Below, piece after piece: positions 13,646 to 22,900 of a stretch of 64,000 nucleotides of DNA. Location of the stretch: NCBI RefSeq assembly GCF_000720765.1, contig NZ_JODC01000005.1, positions 682,001 to 746,000 of the forward strand. Direction: 5' to 3'. The stretch is from Streptomyces sp. NRRL S-646 (GTDB lineage: Bacteria; Actinomycetota; Actinomycetes; Streptomycetales; Streptomycetaceae). The translations under genes were made by a program, and so were the position numbers. The notes beneath the pieces were generated by a model, which was not told the DNA's origin, searched no databases, and was given only the letters and a program-made list of their open reading frames with translations. Within the stretch, counting starts at the first letter, position 1. Each line of letters opens with the position of its first letter.

Positions 13646-14827
13646 ATGGCTGAGGCTCAGAACATCCCCGTGGGGTCCACCACCGCGGGCCAGATCGCGG
13701 TGGCCGCCGAGTCGACCGTCGCCACGCGCATGAGCGCGCCCCCGTCCTTCGACGTCGCGGACTTCCCGGTCCCGCACGGCCGCGAGGAGGAGTGGCGGTT
13801 CACCCCGCTGGAGCGCCTGCGCGGGCTGCACGACGGCACCGCCGTCGCGACCGGCGAGGGCGTGAAGGTCGCCGTCGAGGCCCCTGAGGGCGTCACCGTC
13901 GAGCTCGTCGACCGTGACGACGCACGCCTCGGCAAGGCGGGCACCCCCGTGGACCGCATCGCCGCCCAGGCGTACTCGGCGTTCGAGAAGGCCGGCGTGG
14001 TCACCGTCCCCAAGGAGACGGTGCTCACCGAGCCGATCCGCATCGCCGTGCACGGCGAGGGCGGGGTCGCCTACGGCCACCAGGTCGTGGAGCTCGGAGC
14101 CTTCGCCGAGGCCGTCGTCGTCATCGACCACACCGGTGACGCCGTGCTCGCCGCCAACGTCGACTACATCCTGGGCGACGGCGCCAAGCTCACCGTCGTC
14201 TCCGTCCAGGACTGGGACGACAAGGCCGTGCACGTGGCCCAGCACAACGCCCTCATCGGGCGCGACGCCAGCTTCAAGTCGGTCGTGGTGACCTTCGGCG
14301 GCGACGTCGTACGGCTGCACCCGCGCGTCTCCTACGCCGGCACCGGCGGCGAGGCCGAGCTGTTCGGGCTGTACTTCACGGACGCCGGCCAGCACCAGGA
14401 GCACCGCCTCCTGGTCGACCACAACGTCCCGCACTGCAAGTCCAACGTCGTCTACAAGGGCGCGCTGCAGGGCGAGGCCGCCCACGCGGTGTGGATCGGC
14501 GACGTCCTCATCGAGGCCAAGGCCGAGGGCACGGACACGTACGAGATGAACCGGAACCTCGTCCTGACGGACGGCGCCCGGGTCGACTCCGTGCCGAACC
14601 TCGAGATCGAGACCGGCGAGATCGTCGGCGCCGGCCACGCCTCCGCGACCGGCCGCTTCGACGACGAGCAGCTCTTCTACCTCATGGCCCGCGGCATCCC
14701 GGCCGACGAGGCCCGCCGCCTGGTGGTCCGCGGCTTCTTCGCCGAGCTGGTCCAGCAGATCGGCGTCGACGACATCCAGGCGCGGCTGCTCGAGAAGATC
14801 GACGAGGAGCTGGAGGCCACGGTCTGA
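13646..14827 (+). CDS. sufD: Fe-S cluster assembly protein SufD
   Basis: Second scaffold subunit of SufBC2D, 393 residues, paralogous to SufB: it ends with the same type of segment (DEQLFYLMARGIPADEARRLVVRGFFAEL) and has the SufD-type helical N-terminus with FPVPHGREEEWRFTPL. Starts 59 bases after sufB with AGGAAGAG upstream. Its stop overlaps the Rieske ferredoxin start (TGATG). Confidence 0.96.
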   Translation: MAEAQNIPVGSTTAGQIAVAAESTVATRMSAPPSFDVADFPVPHGREEEWRFTPLERLRGLHDGTAVATGEGVKVAVEAPEGVTVELVDRDDARLGKAGTPVDRIAAQAYSAFEKAGVVTVPKETVLTEPIRIAVHGEGGVAYGHQVVELGAFAEAVVVIDHTGDAVLAANVDYILGDGAKLTVVSVQDWDDKAVHVAQHNALIGRDASFKSVVVTFGGDVVRLHPRVSYAGTGGEAELFGLYFTDAGQHQEHRLLVDHNVPHCKSNVVYKGALQGEAAHAVWIGDVLIEAKAEGTDTYEMNRNLVLTDGARVDSVPNLEIETGEIVGAGHASATGRFDDEQLFYLMARGIPADEARRLVVRGFFAELVQQIGVDDIQARLLEKIDEELEATV

Positions 14828-15144
14828 TGACCTTCGTACGCGCCTGCGGGCTGAGCGAGCTGGAGGAGGACACCCCGAAGCGGGTGGAACTCGACGGCAC
14901 GCCCATCTCGGTCGTGCAGACCGAGGGCGAAGTGTTCGCGATCCACGACATCTGCTCGCACGCGAACGTCTCGCTCTCCGAGGGCGAGGTGGAGGACTGC
15001 CAGATCGAGTGCTGGCTGCACGGCTCCAGCTTCGACCTGCGCACCGGCAAGCCGTCCGGCCTCCCCGCGACGCGCCCCGTCCCCGTATACCCCGTAAAGA
15101 TCGAAGGGGACGACGTTCTCGTCTCCCTCAACCAGGAGTCCTGA
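14827..15144 (+). CDS. Rieske-type [2Fe-2S] ferredoxin in the suf operon
   Basis: 105-residue protein with both Rieske ligand boxes: C-S-H in DICSHANVSL and C-x2-H in ECWLHGSSF, spaced as in dioxygenase ferredoxins, followed by RTGKPSGLPATRPVPVYPV. No membrane segment. Such a gene lies between sufD and sufC in the actinobacterial suf operons I know; its exact role (electron donor or assembly accessory) is not settled. ATG 14827 shares a base with the sufD stop, so it is translationally coupled. Confidence 0.93.
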   Translation: MTFVRACGLSELEEDTPKRVELDGTPISVVQTEGEVFAIHDICSHANVSLSEGEVEDCQIECWLHGSSFDLRTGKPSGLPATRPVPVYPVKIEGDDVLVSLNQES

Positions 15145-15151
15145 GGCACCC

Positions 15152-15912
<761 letters not shown>

Positions 15913-15916
<4 letters not shown>

Positions 15917-17169
15917 CACTGCTGCCGGGCCTCCTCGACACTGAGGCGATCCGCAAGGACTTCCCCATCCTGGACCGCCAGGTCCACGACGGGCAGAAGC
16001 TCGTGTACCTGGACAACGCGGCGACCTCGCAGAAGCCGCGCCAGGTGCTGGACGCCCTGAACGAGTACTACGAGCGCTACAACGCCAACGTCCACCGCGG
16101 TGTGCATGTGCTCGCCGAGGAGGCCACGGCGCTGTACGAGGGTGCGCGGGACAAGGTCGCGTCGTTCATCAACGCGCCCAGCCGCGACGAGGTGATCTTC
16201 ACCAAGAACGCCTCCGAGTCGCTCAACCTCGTGGCGAACATGCTGGGCTGGGCCGACGAGCCCTACCGCGTGGACCACGAGACCGAGATCGTCATCACGG
16301 AGATGGAGCACCACTCCAACATCGTCCCGTGGCAGCTGCTCTCGCAGCGCACGGGCGCGAAGCTGAAGTGGTTCGGCCTGACCGACGACGGCCGTCTCGA
16401 CCTGTCGAACATCGACGAGATCATCACGGAGAAGACGAAGATCGTCTCCTTCGTGCTGGTGTCGAACATCCTCGGCACGGTCAACCCGGTCGAGGCGATA
16501 GTCCGCCGTGCCCAGGAGGTCGGTGCGCTGGTCTGCATCGACGCCTCGCAGGCCGCCCCGCACATGCCGCTGGACGTGCAGTCGCTGCAGGCCGACTTCG
16601 TGGCCTTCACCGGCCACAAGATGTGCGGTCCGACCGGCATCGGTGTGCTCTGGGGCCGCCAGGAGCTCCTGGAGGACCTGCCTCCGTTCCTGGGCGGCGG
16701 CGAGATGATCGAGACGGTGTCGATGCACTCCTCGACGTACGCCCCGGCGCCCCACAAGTTCGAGGCGGGTACGCCTCCGATCGCCCAGGCGGTCGGCCTC
16801 GGTGCGGCGATCGACTACCTCCAGTCGATCGGCATGGACAAGATCCTGGCCCATGAGCACGCGCTGACCGAGTACGCGGTGAAGAAGCTGGGCGAGGTCC
16901 CGGACCTGCGGATCATCGGCCCGACCACGGCCGAGGACCGCGGCGCGGCGATCTCCTTCACGCTCGGCGACATCCACCCGCACGACGTGGGCCAGGTCCT
17001 CGACGAGCAGGGCATCGCGGTCCGCGTCGGCCACCACTGCGCGCGGCCCGTCTGCCTCCGCTACGGAATTCCTGCGACCACGCGAGCGTCGTTCTATCTG
17101 TACTCCACGCCGGCCGAGATCGATGCTCTGGTCGAGGGGCTGGAGCACGTACGGAACTTCTTCGGCTGA
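15913..17169 (+). CDS. sufS: Cysteine desulfurase SufS
   Basis: PLP enzyme that takes sulfur from L-cysteine as a persulfide. 418 residues, class V aminotransferase fold. The PLP lysine is in FTGHKMCGPTG and the persulfide cysteine in VGHHCARPVC. The short active-site loop marks it as SufS (group II), which needs an acceptor, here SufU encoded immediately after. GTG start overlaps the sufC stop. Confidence 0.97.
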
Positions 17170-17187
17170 AGGGCGTGAGCTGAGACC

Positions 17188-17655
17188 GTGAAGCTGGACT
17201 CGATGTACCAGGAAGTCATCCTGGACCACTACAAGAACCCGCACGGGCGTGGTCTTCGGGATGGCGACGCCGAGGTGCACCACGTGAACCCGACGTGCGG
17301 CGACGAGATCACCCTGCGCGTGAAGTACGACGGCACGAAGATCGAGGACGTCTCGTACGAGGGCCAGGGCTGCTCGATCAGCCAGGCCTCGGCCTCCGTC
17401 CTGAACGAACTGCTGGTCGGCAAGGACCTGGCGGACGCACAGAAGATCCAGGAGACCTTCCTGGAGCTGATGCAGTCCAAGGGCCGGATCGAACCGGACG
17501 ACGCGATGGAGGAGGTGCTGGAGGACGCGGTCGCGTTCGCCGGTGTCTCCAAGTACCCGGCCCGGGTCAAGTGCGCCCTCCTCAGCTGGATGGCGTGGAA
17601 GGACGCGACGGCCCAGGCCCTGGGCGGAGCCGACGCCGAAAGGAAGACGGCATGA
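17188..17655 (+). CDS. sufU: SufU sulfur transfer protein
   Basis: Zinc-dependent sulfur acceptor for SufS, 155 residues, IscU-like fold. The ligand set is visible: Cys in NPTCGDE, Cys in YEGQGCSISQAS and Cys in RVKCALLSW, with the conserved Asp in TCGDE. GTG start at 17188, 18 bases after sufS. Overlaps sufT by 4 bases. Confidence 0.95.
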   Translation: MKLDSMYQEVILDHYKNPHGRGLRDGDAEVHHVNPTCGDEITLRVKYDGTKIEDVSYEGQGCSISQASASVLNELLVGKDLADAQKIQETFLELMQSKGRIEPDDAMEEVLEDAVAFAGVSKYPARVKCALLSWMAWKDATAQALGGADAERKTA

Positions 17656-17984
17656 GCGAGACCGTTGAGATGAAGCCGGCCTCGGAGGAAGAGGTCCGTG
17701 AGGCGCTGTACGACGTCGTCGACCCCGAGCTGGGCATCGACGTCGTCAACCTCGGCCTGATCTATGGCATCCACATCGACGACGCGAACATCGCGACGCT
17801 CGACATGACCCTGACGTCGGCGGCCTGCCCGCTGACGGACGTCATCGAGGACCAGGCCAAGTCCGCCACGGACGGCCTCGTCAGCGAGCTGCGCATCAAC
17901 TGGGTGTGGATGCCGCCGTGGGGCCCCGACAAGATCACGGACGACGGGCGGGAGCAGCTGCGGGCGCTCGGGTTCAACGTCTGA
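17652..17984 (+). CDS. DUF59/MIP18-family Fe-S maturation protein (SufT-like)
   Basis: 110 residues, whole-length DUF59 domain: EALYDVVDPELGIDVVNLGLIY, then TLTSAACPLTDVIEDQ with the conserved Cys, then VWMPPWGPDKITDDGREQLRALGF. Members of this family help deliver clusters to target proteins. Last gene of the suf operon (ATGA overlap with sufU). A clear terminator follows 22 bases after the stop. Confidence 0.93.
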   Translation: MSETVEMKPASEEEVREALYDVVDPELGIDVVNLGLIYGIHIDDANIATLDMTLTSAACPLTDVIEDQAKSATDGLVSELRINWVWMPPWGPDKITDDGREQLRALGFNV

Positions 17985-19113: not shown

Positions 19114-19434
19114 ATGGCATTCCTGATGCTCCTCGCGGCCATCGCCGCCGAGGTGGGCGGTACCACCGCCATGAAGTTCAGCCACGGCTTCACCAGGCTG
19201 TGGCCGTCCGTGCTGACGCTCGCCGGATACGGCGTCTCGTTCTGGCTGCTCGCCCAGACGCTGAAGACCATCTCCGTCGGCACGGCCTACGCGATCTGGG
19301 CGGGCCTGGGCACCGCGGCCATCGTGGCCATCGGCATCCTCTTCCTCGGCGAGGGGATGACCGTCCCGAAGGCCGTGGGAATCGGGCTGATCATCGTCGG
19401 GGTCGTGGTGCTCAACCTGGGAGGCGCGCACTGA
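19114..19434 (+). CDS. Small multidrug resistance (SMR/EmrE-type) efflux protein
   Basis: 106 residues, four membrane helices, typical SMR length. The essential membrane glutamate is Glu13 (AAIAAEVGGTTAMK). Family motifs follow: GVSFWLLAQTLKTISVGTAYAIWAGLG. Exchanges protons for lipophilic cations as a dimer. Start at ATG 19114, directly behind the paired palindromes; a longer upstream frame would read through them. Overlaps the TetR gene by one base. Confidence 0.92.
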   Translation: MAFLMLLAAIAAEVGGTTAMKFSHGFTRLWPSVLTLAGYGVSFWLLAQTLKTISVGTAYAIWAGLGTAAIVAIGILFLGEGMTVPKAVGIGLIIVGVVVLNLGGAH

Positions 19435-19982
19435 TGCCCCGCCGCTACGACCCCGACCGGCGGCAGCGGATCATCGACGCGGCGATCCGGGTGGTGGGCG
19501 AGAAGGGTCTGACCGGGCTGAGCCACCGCTCCGCCGCCGCCGAGGCCGACGTGCCGCTCGGCTCGACGACGTATCACTTCAAGACCCTCGACGAACTGAT
19601 GGTCGCCGCGCTACGGCAGGCGAGCGAGGGCTTCGCCGAAGTGGTCGCCTCGCGGGGCGGTCTGGAGGATCCGCAGCCCGACCTGGCCGCCGAACTCGCG
19701 GGTTGTCTGGGCGAGTGGCTCGCGGGCGACCGCACCGGCGTCGAGCTGGAGTACGAGCTCTATCTCGCGGCCCTGCGCCGCCCCGCCCTTCGCCCGGTGG
19801 CCGCCGAATGGGCCGAGGGCGTGGCCGAACAGATCGCCCGGCACACCGATCCGGTGACGGCCCGGGCGCTGGTCGCGCTGATGGACGGCATCTGTCTGCA
19901 GGTGCTGCTGACGGGGGCGCCCTACGACGAGAAGTACGCGCGCGAGGTGCTGGCGCGGATGATTCCCCCGCCCCGTTCATGA
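19434..19982 (+). CDS. TetR-family repressor of the SMR pump
   Basis: 182 residues. The N-terminal helix-turn-helix is at about 10-50 (IIDAAIRVVGEKGLTGLSHRS, then VPLGSTTYHFKTLDEL) and the ligand domain follows. It overlaps the pump gene by one base (TGATG), so both are made from one message, and the paired palindromes ahead of the pump are its likely target. Confidence 0.88.
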   Translation: MPRRYDPDRRQRIIDAAIRVVGEKGLTGLSHRSAAAEADVPLGSTTYHFKTLDELMVAALRQASEGFAEVVASRGGLEDPQPDLAAELAGCLGEWLAGDRTGVELEYELYLAALRRPALRPVAAEWAEGVAEQIARHTDPVTARALVALMDGICLQVLLTGAPYDEKYAREVLARMIPPPRS

Positions 19983-20262: not shown

Positions 20263-21150
20263 TCATTCCTCCGAGGTGAGACGCCGGACCGTGGCCAGGG
20301 CGGCCGCCACGCTCCCGGCGATGTCCGTCACCGGATACTGCACCTCCCGCACGACCCGCTCCCGGTCCACGACCAGCGTGAGCCGCTTCAGCCGGCTGGC
20401 CCCCGCCGCGCGGAACGTCGGCAGCCGCAGCGCGGCGATGAGCGACAGGCCGGCGTCCGACAGCAGCGGGAAGTGCAGCCCCTCCTTCTCCGCGAACGCC
20501 CGCTGCTCGTCCGGGCGCTGGGTGGAGACGCCGTGCACGGCGGCGCCCGCGGCGGTGAACTCGGCCAGCCGGTCGCGGTAGGTGCAGGACTCCAGGGTGC
20601 AGCCGGGCGTGCCGGGGATGTCCGTCCAGCCCGGCGGATAGGAGTCGGCGCGGGCATAGGCGCCGGGGAAGCAGTACAGGACGGTGTACGGGCTGTCGAC
20701 GGCGACCGGGTCCAGCAATCCGCCCGTGTGGCCCGGAAGCAGGAGCTCGGGGATCCGGTCGCCGACCAGTTCGTGCACCCGCTGGGCTTCCGCGGACGCC
20801 TCCGCCGTCGTGGCCGTCGTACTCCCGTCGCCCAGGACCCAGGCATCGCCCCAGTCCTGGAGGGCGATCAGGACGGGAAGCAGGGCACGGCCGCGCGGGG
20901 TGAGGCGGTACTCGTGGCGGACCGGGCGCTCCTGGTACGGCACCCGGGTGAGCACGTCCGCCTCGACGAGAAGGCGCAGCCGCTCGGTCAACACCTTTCT
21001 GGACACGCCGAGTTCGGCCTGCAGCGCGTCGAAGCGGTGCACCCCGCGTGCCGCGTCCCGGACGATCAGCAGCGTCCACCAGTCGCCGACCACGTCCAGA
21101 GCCTGTGCGATGGCGCAGGTGGCGTCCTCCAGGCTCGTCCTGCGGGCCAT
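20263..21150 (-). CDS. HxlR-family regulator fused to a peroxiredoxin domain
   Basis: 295 residues in two parts. Residues 1-105 are an HxlR winged helix (ALDVVGDWWTLLIVRDA, VSRKVLTERLRLLVEADVLTR, EYRLTPRGRALLPVL), with Cys12 at the position where redox-sensing HxlR proteins often carry a reactive cysteine. Residues 125-295 are an AhpC/Bcp-like peroxiredoxin: PELLLPG, TVLYCFPGAY, TPGCTLESCTYRDRLAEF with likely peroxidatic Cys184 and Cys189 nearby, GVSTQRPDEQRAFAEK, FPLLSDAG. It is divergent from an MFS pump with a palindrome between them, so it probably regulates that pump in response to peroxide or electrophiles. No frameshift or internal start separates the parts. Confidence 0.85.
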   Translation of the reverse strand: MARRTSLEDATCAIAQALDVVGDWWTLLIVRDAARGVHRFDALQAELGVSRKVLTERLRLLVEADVLTRVPYQERPVRHEYRLTPRGRALLPVLIALQDWGDAWVLGDGSTTATTAEASAEAQRVHELVGDRIPELLLPGHTGGLLDPVAVDSPYTVLYCFPGAYARADSYPPGWTDIPGTPGCTLESCTYRDRLAEFTAAGAAVHGVSTQRPDEQRAFAEKEGLHFPLLSDAGLSLIAALRLPTFRAAGASRLKRLTLVVDRERVVREVQYPVTDIAGSVAAALATVRRLTSEE

Positions 21151-21181
21151 GGCTTCCCGTCCCTTCGTGCACAGGTCGTGG

Positions 21182-21231
21182 TTGACCTGAGATTGTCATG
21201 CCCTCATAGTAAGTTCCTAAAAGGAACTCAC
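21182..21231 (+). promoter_or_regulatory. Promoter and HxlR-type operator between regulator and MFS pump
   Basis: On the plus strand TTGACC (21182-21187), 17-base spacer, CATAGT (21205-21210) forms a housekeeping-type promoter for the pump. A palindrome at 21209-21231 has core arms AGTTCC and GGAACT around TAAAA and overlaps the -10 and the expected start point. TAGTAAGTTCC-type symmetric sites are typical for HxlR proteins. On the minus strand TACTAT in the same region could serve the regulator. Confidence 0.65.
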
Positions 21232-21242
21232 TGGGGGGACGA

Positions 21243-22526
21243 GTGCGAGGTCTGCGAGAGGTGCCGCGGACGGTCTGGCTGCTGGCCTGCGGGACGTTCG
21301 TGAACATGGTCGTGAGCGTGAGCTTCGCCTATACGTTCCTCTATCTGACCGGGCCGCGGGGGCTCAGCACGGGCCAGGCGGGCCTGCTCAGCGGCGTCGC
21401 GGGGGCCGGCCTGGTCGCGGGGAACTTCACCGGCGGCTGGTACGGAGACCGATTCGGGCACCGGCGGGTGCTGCTCGCGGGCGCCGCGGTGTCCGGGCTG
21501 GTCCTGGCCGCCGTACCGCTGCTGCCGACGTCGCTGCTGTTCGCCGCGCTGCCGGTGTCCCAGTACGCGTCCGGTGTGCAGCGCGCGGCCAACTCCGCGC
21601 TCGTCGCGGTCATCGTGCCGGAGGGGGCGCGGCGGCAGGCGTTCGCCGTGGTGCGGGCCGCGGCGAACGGGGGGTTCACGCTGGGGCCGGTGCTCGGGGC
21701 GCTGGTCGCCACGCGCTTCTCGTACGACTGGCTGTACGTCGCGGAGGGGCTCGGGAGCCTGGGACTGGCGTGCTGGACGGCGCGGGTGGTGCCGGCGCGG
21801 GGGGCCGCCGGGCGGGGGCGGGCGGGGCATTCGGAGCCGGGCGGGGTGTGGGCGGCGCTTCGGGCTCGGCCCGCTGTGCTGGTGCTGCTGCCGGCGATCC
21901 TGGTCGTCGACGTCGTGTACCGGCAGCAGTACTCCACGTTTCCCGTCTTTCTCGCCGACCACGGGATGGATGCGCGGGTGTACGGGGCGCTGCTCGCGGT
22001 CAACGGTGGGGTGTTGCTGTGTCTGGAACTGCCGGTGGCGGTGGCACTGCGGCGGCGGTCGCCGTTGCGGATCGTGGGGAGTGGGCTGCTGTTGGTCGGT
22101 GCGGGGTATGGGGTGTTGCTGGTGGGGGCCGGGGTGGGGGCGGCGGTGGTGATGATGGGGCTGCTGACGTTGGGGGAGGTGCTGTACAAGACGACCGCTA
22201 CGGCTTATGTCGCTGATCAGGCACCGGGGCATGTGCTGGGGCGGTTTCAGTCGCTGTATGCCGGGGTGTCGATCAGTGGGGTGGTGTTGGCTGCGCCGTT
22301 GGGTGGGGTGCTGTATGAGGCGGCGCCGGGGGTGTTGTGGCCGGTGTGTGCGGGGGTGGGGGCGGTGGCGGGGGGCGCGGTGCTGCTGGCCGGGGGCCGG
22401 GCCGGTGGCCCTGTCTCCGCCGCCGCAGAGGTTTCTCGCCCCCGCCGCCCCTACCCGTCCCGTCCCAGGGGCGCTGCCCCTTCGGCCCCGCTGGGGGCTG
22501 CGCCCCCAGACCCCCCTTCGGCCTGA
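21243..22526 (+). CDS. MFS transporter; 3' end formed by dispersed repeat B
   Basis: 427 residues, twelve membrane segments, drug/sugar efflux-type MFS with motif A-like GGWYGDRFGHRRVLL between TM2 and TM3. GTG start at 21243 with GGGGGG upstream, directly behind the operator shared with the HxlR-peroxiredoxin gene. After the last membrane segment (about residue 390) the tail SRPRRPYPSRPRGAAPSAP and onward is encoded by the dispersed family B repeat (from about 22437), so the natural C-terminus has been replaced or extended by roughly 30 residues. Confidence 0.85.
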   Translation: MRGLREVPRTVWLLACGTFVNMVVSVSFAYTFLYLTGPRGLSTGQAGLLSGVAGAGLVAGNFTGGWYGDRFGHRRVLLAGAAVSGLVLAAVPLLPTSLLFAALPVSQYASGVQRAANSALVAVIVPEGARRQAFAVVRAAANGGFTLGPVLGALVATRFSYDWLYVAEGLGSLGLACWTARVVPARGAAGRGRAGHSEPGGVWAALRARPAVLVLLPAILVVDVVYRQQYSTFPVFLADHGMDARVYGALLAVNGGVLLCLELPVAVALRRRSPLRIVGSGLLLVGAGYGVLLVGAGVGAAVVMMGLLTLGEVLYKTTATAYVADQAPGHVLGRFQSLYAGVSISGVVLAAPLGGVLYEAAPGVLWPVCAGVGAVAGGAVLLAGGRAGGPVSAAAEVSRPRRPYPSRPRGAAPSAPLGAAPPDPPSA

Positions 22527-22648: not shown

Positions 22649-22900
22649 GACCGGCTGGAAGGGGGGCGCTCGCCGGATGTCCGAGACCGGCTGGGCAGGA
22701 CGCGCCTTCTCGCTGTAGGAGACCGGCTGGGCAGGACGCGCCTTCTCGCTGTGGGGGACCGGCTGGGTTGGGTGTGCGTTCTCGCTGTGGGGGACCGGCT
22801 GGGTTGGGCGCGCCTTCTCGCCCTAAGGGACCGGTTGGATGGGGCACCTGCCCGCTGTCCGAGAGCGACTGGAAGGGGCGCCCGCTCGTTACCTGAGACG
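22649..22900. repeat. 36-bp tandem array upstream of dapD
   Basis: Seven contiguous units starting at 22649, 22685, 22721, 22757, 22793, 22829 and 22865. Unit core GACCGGCTGG, followed by a G-rich stretch, then GCGCCTTCTCGCTGT in the central copies. The units at 22685 and 22721 are nearly identical; outer ones are progressively diverged and further decayed units extend back to about 22560. The period is a multiple of three and no unit carries a stop, which keeps several frames open on both strands without any being a credible gene. Confidence 0.9.

Follow-up and report, generated by a model that had tools for sequence, protein, structure and literature searches.

The window, by which we mean the whole 64-kb stretch of DNA analyzed, carries on its minus strand an open reading frame of 295 aa with an ATG start (20263..21150), which encodes a fusion of an HxlR winged-helix domain with a peroxiredoxin domain (HxlR-Prx). 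The first-pass annotation had proposed such a fusion, and a Pfam domain search of the 295-aa protein found both parts above their cut-offs. The HxlR domain covers residues 20-105 (20836..21093, minus strand) and scores 85.5 bits against the curated PF01638 cut-off of 20.8, which places the protein within the HxlR family; it does not reach the NCBIfam cut-offs for RrpB (63.6 of 175) or RrpA (36.5 of 185). The peroxiredoxin domain covers residues 124-293 (20272..20781, minus strand), with matches to AhpC-TSA at residues 181-269 (58.7 bits, cut-off 26) and to Redoxin at residues 180-274 (39.9 bits, cut-off 26.6), and both the Pfam scores and the fold assign it to the peroxiredoxin superfamily. 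Its scores stay below the cut-offs of the NCBIfam PrxQ equivalogs NF053650 (46.8 of 260) and NF006960 (42.2 of 140), and judged by these matches the Prx part is PrxQ-like and lies outside both equivalogs. An AF2 model of the fusion, built as a monomer, gave a pLDDT of 92.6 and a pTM of 0.88. The HxlR assignment rests on sequence matches, because the Foldseek and VIA rows were all taken by the Prx part.

A frameshift or two-gene artefact was ruled out, as the gene is a single open frame and its relatives share both length and domain order. Both domains appear in JGI product names (“DNA-binding HxlR family transcriptional regulator/peroxiredoxin”), and usually one in those from NCBI. The description of the fusion as little studied holds as far as our open-access literature search reached, since no paper about an HxlR- or MerR-peroxiredoxin fusion was found among the matches listed. 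The peroxiredoxin-nitroreductase 4EO3 is also a fused Prx fold but, by its title, one that joins enzyme to enzyme, with no DNA-binding domain named.

Divergently from the fusion, on the plus strand, lies a gene for an MFS exporter of 427 aa (21243..22526; PF07690, 125.3 bits), in agreement with the efflux pump that had been read at this position; a PDB sequence search with the pump protein returned no match. We confirmed 261 relatives of the fusion (one genome per species), and the best 80, a set biased to near relatives, are all titled Streptomyces or “Actinobacteria bacterium”; among the listed relatives is an S. venezuelae protein with 80% identity. The neighbourhood of fusion and MFS gene recurs among them: a homologue of the window MFS gene lies upstream and divergent in 73 of the best 80 of the 261 relatives, and none was found in the other 7, three of which were scanned for neighbours (dapD-like in L073 and L077, a sigma factor in L040). 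Across the genus, a search with the Prx domain matched 106 of 295 genomes at E 1e-20 or better, and identity together with the retrieved loci divided these into a MerR-Prx group and three HxlR-Prx groups, A, B and C, of which A usually has the pump. Of 12 group B loci, 5 have a divergent gene from an ABC-2 permease cluster and 3 have one from an MFS_3 cluster, labels that derive from one scanned member of each cluster. Across the phylum, 45 of 396 genomes matched, and an HxlR domain in frame was found at none of the 27 loci retrieved there from other families (L123-L149). Fusions are also listed in other actinobacteria, including Nocardioides and Terrabacter, which the neighbour and palindrome counts leave out.

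Between the two divergent genes lies a palindrome, AGTAAGTTCCTAAAAGGAACTCACT (21208..21232, common to both strands), with the arms AGTAAGTTCC and GGAACTCACT around a TAAAA spacer, which we consider a putative operator. It had been placed at 21209-21231 over the pump promoter, and that position is borne out by its conservation and by its overlap with the second hexamer. The promoter in question, TTGACC-N17-CATAGT (21182..21210, plus strand), reads toward the pump and is the sole sigma-70-like match in 20900-21400 (shuffles gave a mean of 0.0, sd 0.1); its second hexamer (21205-21210) is the part that overlaps the palindrome. The core GTTCC-N5-GGAAC occurs once in the window and 72 times in the 827 kb of the 80 related loci, 70 of which have one at this site. 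In the 10.7-Mb genome, AGTTCC-N5-GGAACT is found at one place, that of the fusion. This rarity by itself proves nothing, because the backward control pattern also occurs once; the palindrome is supported by comparison across loci, not by rarity.

A 17-base core within 5 mismatches is present at 79 of the 80 loci and the exact 15-base core at 70, and locus L072 has both fusion and pump but lacks the palindrome. When 79 loci were aligned on the core, its 15 columns carried 1.2-2.0 bits, values inflated by the anchoring, which took the best-matching core with up to 5 mismatches, and the 26 columns on the pump side carried 0.1-0.6 bit. The promoter columns, which were not used for anchoring, peaked at 2.0 bits around the second hexamer and carried 0.7-1.8 bits over the first. 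Within 150 bases upstream of the HxlR-Prx paralogues, the exact core was found at 6 of 12 loci in group B and at 4 of 9 in group C. Of the 5 group-A loci checked in which a pump homologue was not detected, 4 still have it ahead of the fusion gene, which agrees with autoregulation, since this would need an upstream site.

A looser form of the palindrome pattern occurs at five places in this genome, and its backward control at none. Besides the fusion site, one place lies 27 bases before an O-methyltransferase gene (PF01596), and the three others lie inside a called frame (L194), between frames, with a long one starting 137 bases further on (L195), and in a longer GC-rich inverted repeat (L197). 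The best PDB matches of the O-methyltransferase are bacterial O-methyltransferases, with catechol O-methyltransferases lower in the list. Orthologues with at least 70% identity, a line set after the scores were seen, were found in 15 of 40 group-A fusion genomes versus 0 of 40 genomes without the fusion; the sample comprised 40 of the 47 group-A genomes plus 40 from the genus that gave no Prx match at E 1e-20, a status that for some was taken from their absence from the match list, and such co-occurrence counts ignore phylogeny. A site with at most two mismatches lies in the 120 bases upstream of 14 of the 15 orthologues (L227 has none), compared with 1 of 21 more distant homologues (L230), these being the part of 34 covered by upstream stretches, and 4 of 7200 shuffled stretches. 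No fusion was found in the genome of L230. The sequence GTTCCNTWWNGGAAC is present in 35 of the 40 fusion genomes, their own fusion site included, versus 6 of the 40 others, and its backward control in 4 of 80. At one group C locus (L163), the fusion itself is divergent from an O-methyltransferase. We regard the operator and the targets proposed here, pump and O-methyltransferase, as very probable.

Turning to the peroxiredoxin part, the three cysteines read earlier lie where they had been placed (Cys12, Cys184 within TPGCT, and Cys189), and a fourth is found at residue 160. Residue counts derive from 537 aligned rows that overlap between sources and were not thinned, so the 310 HxlR-Prx rows are redundant. 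The peroxidatic Cys184 (20599..20601, minus strand) is Cys in 310/310 HxlR-Prx and 94/94 MerR-Prx rows, and Arg256 is retained in 308 of 309 HxlR-Prx rows; both align with the peroxidatic Cys and active-site Arg of 5epf, as in the peroxiredoxin superfamily. Cys189 (20584..20586, minus strand), a PrxQ-type resolving cysteine five residues past Cys184 as in 2-Cys PrxQ/BCP proteins, is Cys in 244/310 HxlR-Prx and 93/93 MerR-Prx rows, with Arg in 50 of the HxlR-Prx rows and Met, Leu, Ser, Val, Thr or Ala in the remainder. The “Prx alone” class of 133 rows has 37 without the resolving Cys, many of which we presume to be truncated HxlR fusions. At the catalytic Thr position, the 310 HxlR-Prx rows have Ala (221), Thr (55), Gly (30) or Ser (4), and all 94 MerR-Prx rows have Ala. 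The window protein, with Thr181, Cys184, Cys189 and Arg256 together, could thus be a working peroxidase whose HTH has ceased to regulate its neighbours, but the palindrome is conserved beside the fusion, including at most of the checked loci without a detected pump homologue, and before a second gene, which makes this explanation highly improbable.

The peroxiredoxin active-site motif is P-x-x-x-T/S-x-x-C, and its exact spacing is not kept in the fusion, where residue 177 is Asp and the active-site loop has gained a 15-residue insertion after Pro162 (20620..20664, minus strand; about residues 163-177, with approximate borders). The insertion is seen as a 15-residue gap in the aligned PrxQ-like stretch of the same genome (L190 row). 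The domain had been called intact-looking, which is correct for the Prx fold, the peroxidatic Cys, the Thr and the Arg but not for the loop, where the insertion breaks the PxxxTxxC spacing. Given this insertion, and given that most relatives have Ala or Gly in place of the catalytic Thr, the family as a whole should not be presumed to have an intact peroxidase; such replacements may mean weak peroxidase activity. Compared with PrxQ/BCP proteins such as M. tuberculosis BcpB (5EPF), the HxlR fusions differ in having an HTH and the loop insertion, in often having Ala for Thr and in often lacking the resolving Cys, and the scores of the window protein against the NCBIfam PrxQ models fall well short of their cut-offs.

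Regulators of exporters commonly bind the drug that is exported, and the Prx fold could accordingly be a binding pocket for the pump substrate with no redox chemistry, a pocket that the loop insertion and the replacement of the catalytic Thr by Ala or Gly in 251/310 rows could shape. A plain pocket, however, needs neither Cys184 nor Arg256, and both are conserved almost without exception, so we consider a ligand sensor unlikely. On a quick tree of 98 rows (96 hand-chosen from the 537 and 2 long-branched PrxQ pieces as outgroup; no AU test), Cys189 shows 7 changes of state, and all rows without it are HxlR fusions. A domain in which Cys184 is always kept and Cys189 is repeatedly absent matches a sensor as well as, or better than, a turnover scavenger; the absence of Cys189 is also compatible with a 1-Cys peroxidase reduced by mycothiol.

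The same kind of Prx domain is found behind a second regulator family. In the MerR-Prx protein scanned, the MerR and Prx models are both above cut-off, and such proteins are listed in Streptomyces, Kitasatospora, Catenulispora, Actinomadura, Micromonospora and Saccharopolyspora. Their MerR part keeps two cysteines (89/94 and 93/94 rows). Like the MerR-type regulators SoxR and NmlR, they have a MerR HTH and a dyad in their own promoter spacer, but they differ by the C-terminal Prx domain and by scores below all listed NCBIfam MerR-type cut-offs. Twelve MerR-Prx upstream stretches (L170-L176, L178, L179, L183, L184 and L188) share a promoter-like stretch with a spacer dyad of approximately CTTGACCTTGCCCC-GGGGCAAGGTTTAGCGT, with variations, as in MerR-type control, which suggests autoregulation. 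Among the MerR-Prx neighbours scanned, no shared partner was found except an FMN-binding-like gene at two loci. An in-frame ATG just ahead of the Prx part occurs in 6 of the 12 genes (L170, L171, L175, L178, L179 and L188), preceded in four (L170, L171, L175 and L179) by a Shine-Dalgarno-like AAGGAGA, and free Prx may also be produced from the MerR-Prx gene by this route.

On the tree, which has many weak branches and a distant outgroup, 16 MerR rows group with stand-alone proteins (support 98), and a separate branch holds all 59 HxlR rows and 3 stand-alone proteins (support 83). These placements suggest that the same Prx domain was joined to two different kinds of transcription factor. Since HxlR and MerR families share the same C-terminal Prx subfamily, the domain appears to be an input rather than cargo, and we hold it somewhat probable that it provides the signal input of the fusion. 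A more tentative, and rather doubtful, extension is that the long-loop Prx subfamily is a portable sensory domain captured independently by actinobacterial HxlR and MerR regulators, with the resolving role in the HxlR line passing from Cys189 to Cys12 to give an intramolecular relay. Three proteins listed without an HxlR domain (P0124, P0135 and P0146) lie inside the HxlR-A branch, perhaps through secondary HTH loss or a late start call.

Cys12, the N-terminal HxlR/DUF24 cysteine (21115..21117, minus strand), is Cys in 276/276 fusion rows that reach it; the remaining 34 of the 310 rows have a gap there, and all start downstream of the position. It lies ahead of the HTH, where HxlR/DUF24 redox sensors have their conserved cysteine. 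Of 20 unfused HxlR proteins that could be aligned from this genome, 16 also have this Cys (22 other HxlR places, of which L258 and L259 yielded no aligned row). The presence of Cys12 in the HxlR part, as first read, therefore stands, but the residue is a family trait and not special to the fusion, and its conservation was rejected as proof of a relay. To our knowledge, the known HxlR/DUF24 redox repressors are single-domain proteins. Like the fusion, YodB, CatR and HypR of B. subtilis and QsrR combine a winged helix with an N-terminal Cys; they put detoxification genes under redox-sensed control, as the fusion would, and the DUF24 regulators HypR, YodB and CatR use that Cys to sense HOCl, quinones and diamide; unlike for the fusion, the portion of the source available mentions no peroxiredoxin domain for these repressors (PMC6943732). 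By this precedent, the fusion could switch by Cys12 only, as a YodB/CatR-like electrophile or quinone sensor with the Prx merely a tethered scavenger or dimerization part. The strict conservation of Cys12 agrees with such a switch, and an exporter and an O-methyltransferase whose distant solved relatives include catechol O-methyltransferases would suit aromatic or quinone stress. Nevertheless, Cys184 and Arg256 are conserved as strictly as Cys12, a 2-Cys scavenger would be expected to retain the Cys189 that is absent in 66/310 rows, and a second transcription factor family has the same Prx subfamily; we consider a Cys12-only switch a minority possibility.

Our proposal is that the fusion acts as a one-component, autoregulated redox repressor, a reading to which, taken as a whole, we give about even chances. 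The domains, the conserved palindrome, its overlap with the promoter, the co-occurring second target and the invariant Cys12, Cys184 and Arg256 are supported by the sequence comparisons. From these we infer that the fusion binds DNA, represses and is released, that peroxide is the signal, which thiol is the disulfide partner, and by what route the oxidizing equivalents travel. The reduced HxlR part would bind AGTnAGTTCC-N5-GGAACTnACT, both across the -10/+1 region of the MFS pump promoter and upstream of its own gene; in some species it would also bind the promoter of the unlinked O-methyltransferase. With the Prx domain as input, which could bring reactivity toward hydroperoxides to the regulator, Cys184 would be oxidized by a hydroperoxide or another thiol oxidant from redox-active phenols or quinones and would form a disulfide with Cys189 or, in proteins that lack Cys189, with a different thiol, for instance Cys12 or mycothiol. 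This disulfide would alter the HTH, DNA would be released, and the export and O-methylation genes would be turned on until thiol reductants reset the repressor. A relay from Cys184 to Cys12 in particular we consider possible but rather unlikely. An output of exporter and O-methyltransferase would fit defence against, or self-resistance to, redox-active aromatic compounds.

Gpx3-Yap1 is a two-protein peroxiredoxin relay. In the Prx2-STAT3 relay, the nearest published idea found, a peroxide-reactive thiol enzyme hands oxidation to a transcription factor, and how a peroxiredoxin meets the factor it oxidizes is described, in the part of the source available, as an open question in redox relays (PMC7481202). 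Compared with such two-protein relays, the fusion would hold both partners of a putative relay in one polypeptide. A natural fusion, present at no fewer than 80 Streptomyces-type loci and equipped with a candidate operator and two candidate targets, brings the relay idea within reach of a single protein and three point mutants, and points to a possible redox trigger for small-molecule export and O-methylation in antibiotic producers. What goes beyond the first-pass annotation is the conservation of the palindrome, its second target, and the two putative Prx captures.

Some further features were observed around these genes. Next to the fusion, a small multidrug resistance gene (PF00893) beside a TetR-like regulator (19120-19434 and 19425-19982) forms a second efflux system adjoining the locus. 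A suf-like Fe-S cluster assembly operon, with an ABC ATPase, a class-V aminotransferase and a NifU-like gene, lies nearby (13646-17984), and past the pump gene there is a tandem array of a 36-bp unit in 4.5 copies (22685-22845). At 16 loci of deep actinobacterial genomes (L137, and similar ones within L127-L149), a gene of one cluster precedes a stand-alone Prx, often with 0-9 bases between them or with an overlap; in L137 this preceding gene is ketoacyl-synthase-like, and QueC/NAD-synthase-like and DUF456 genes follow.
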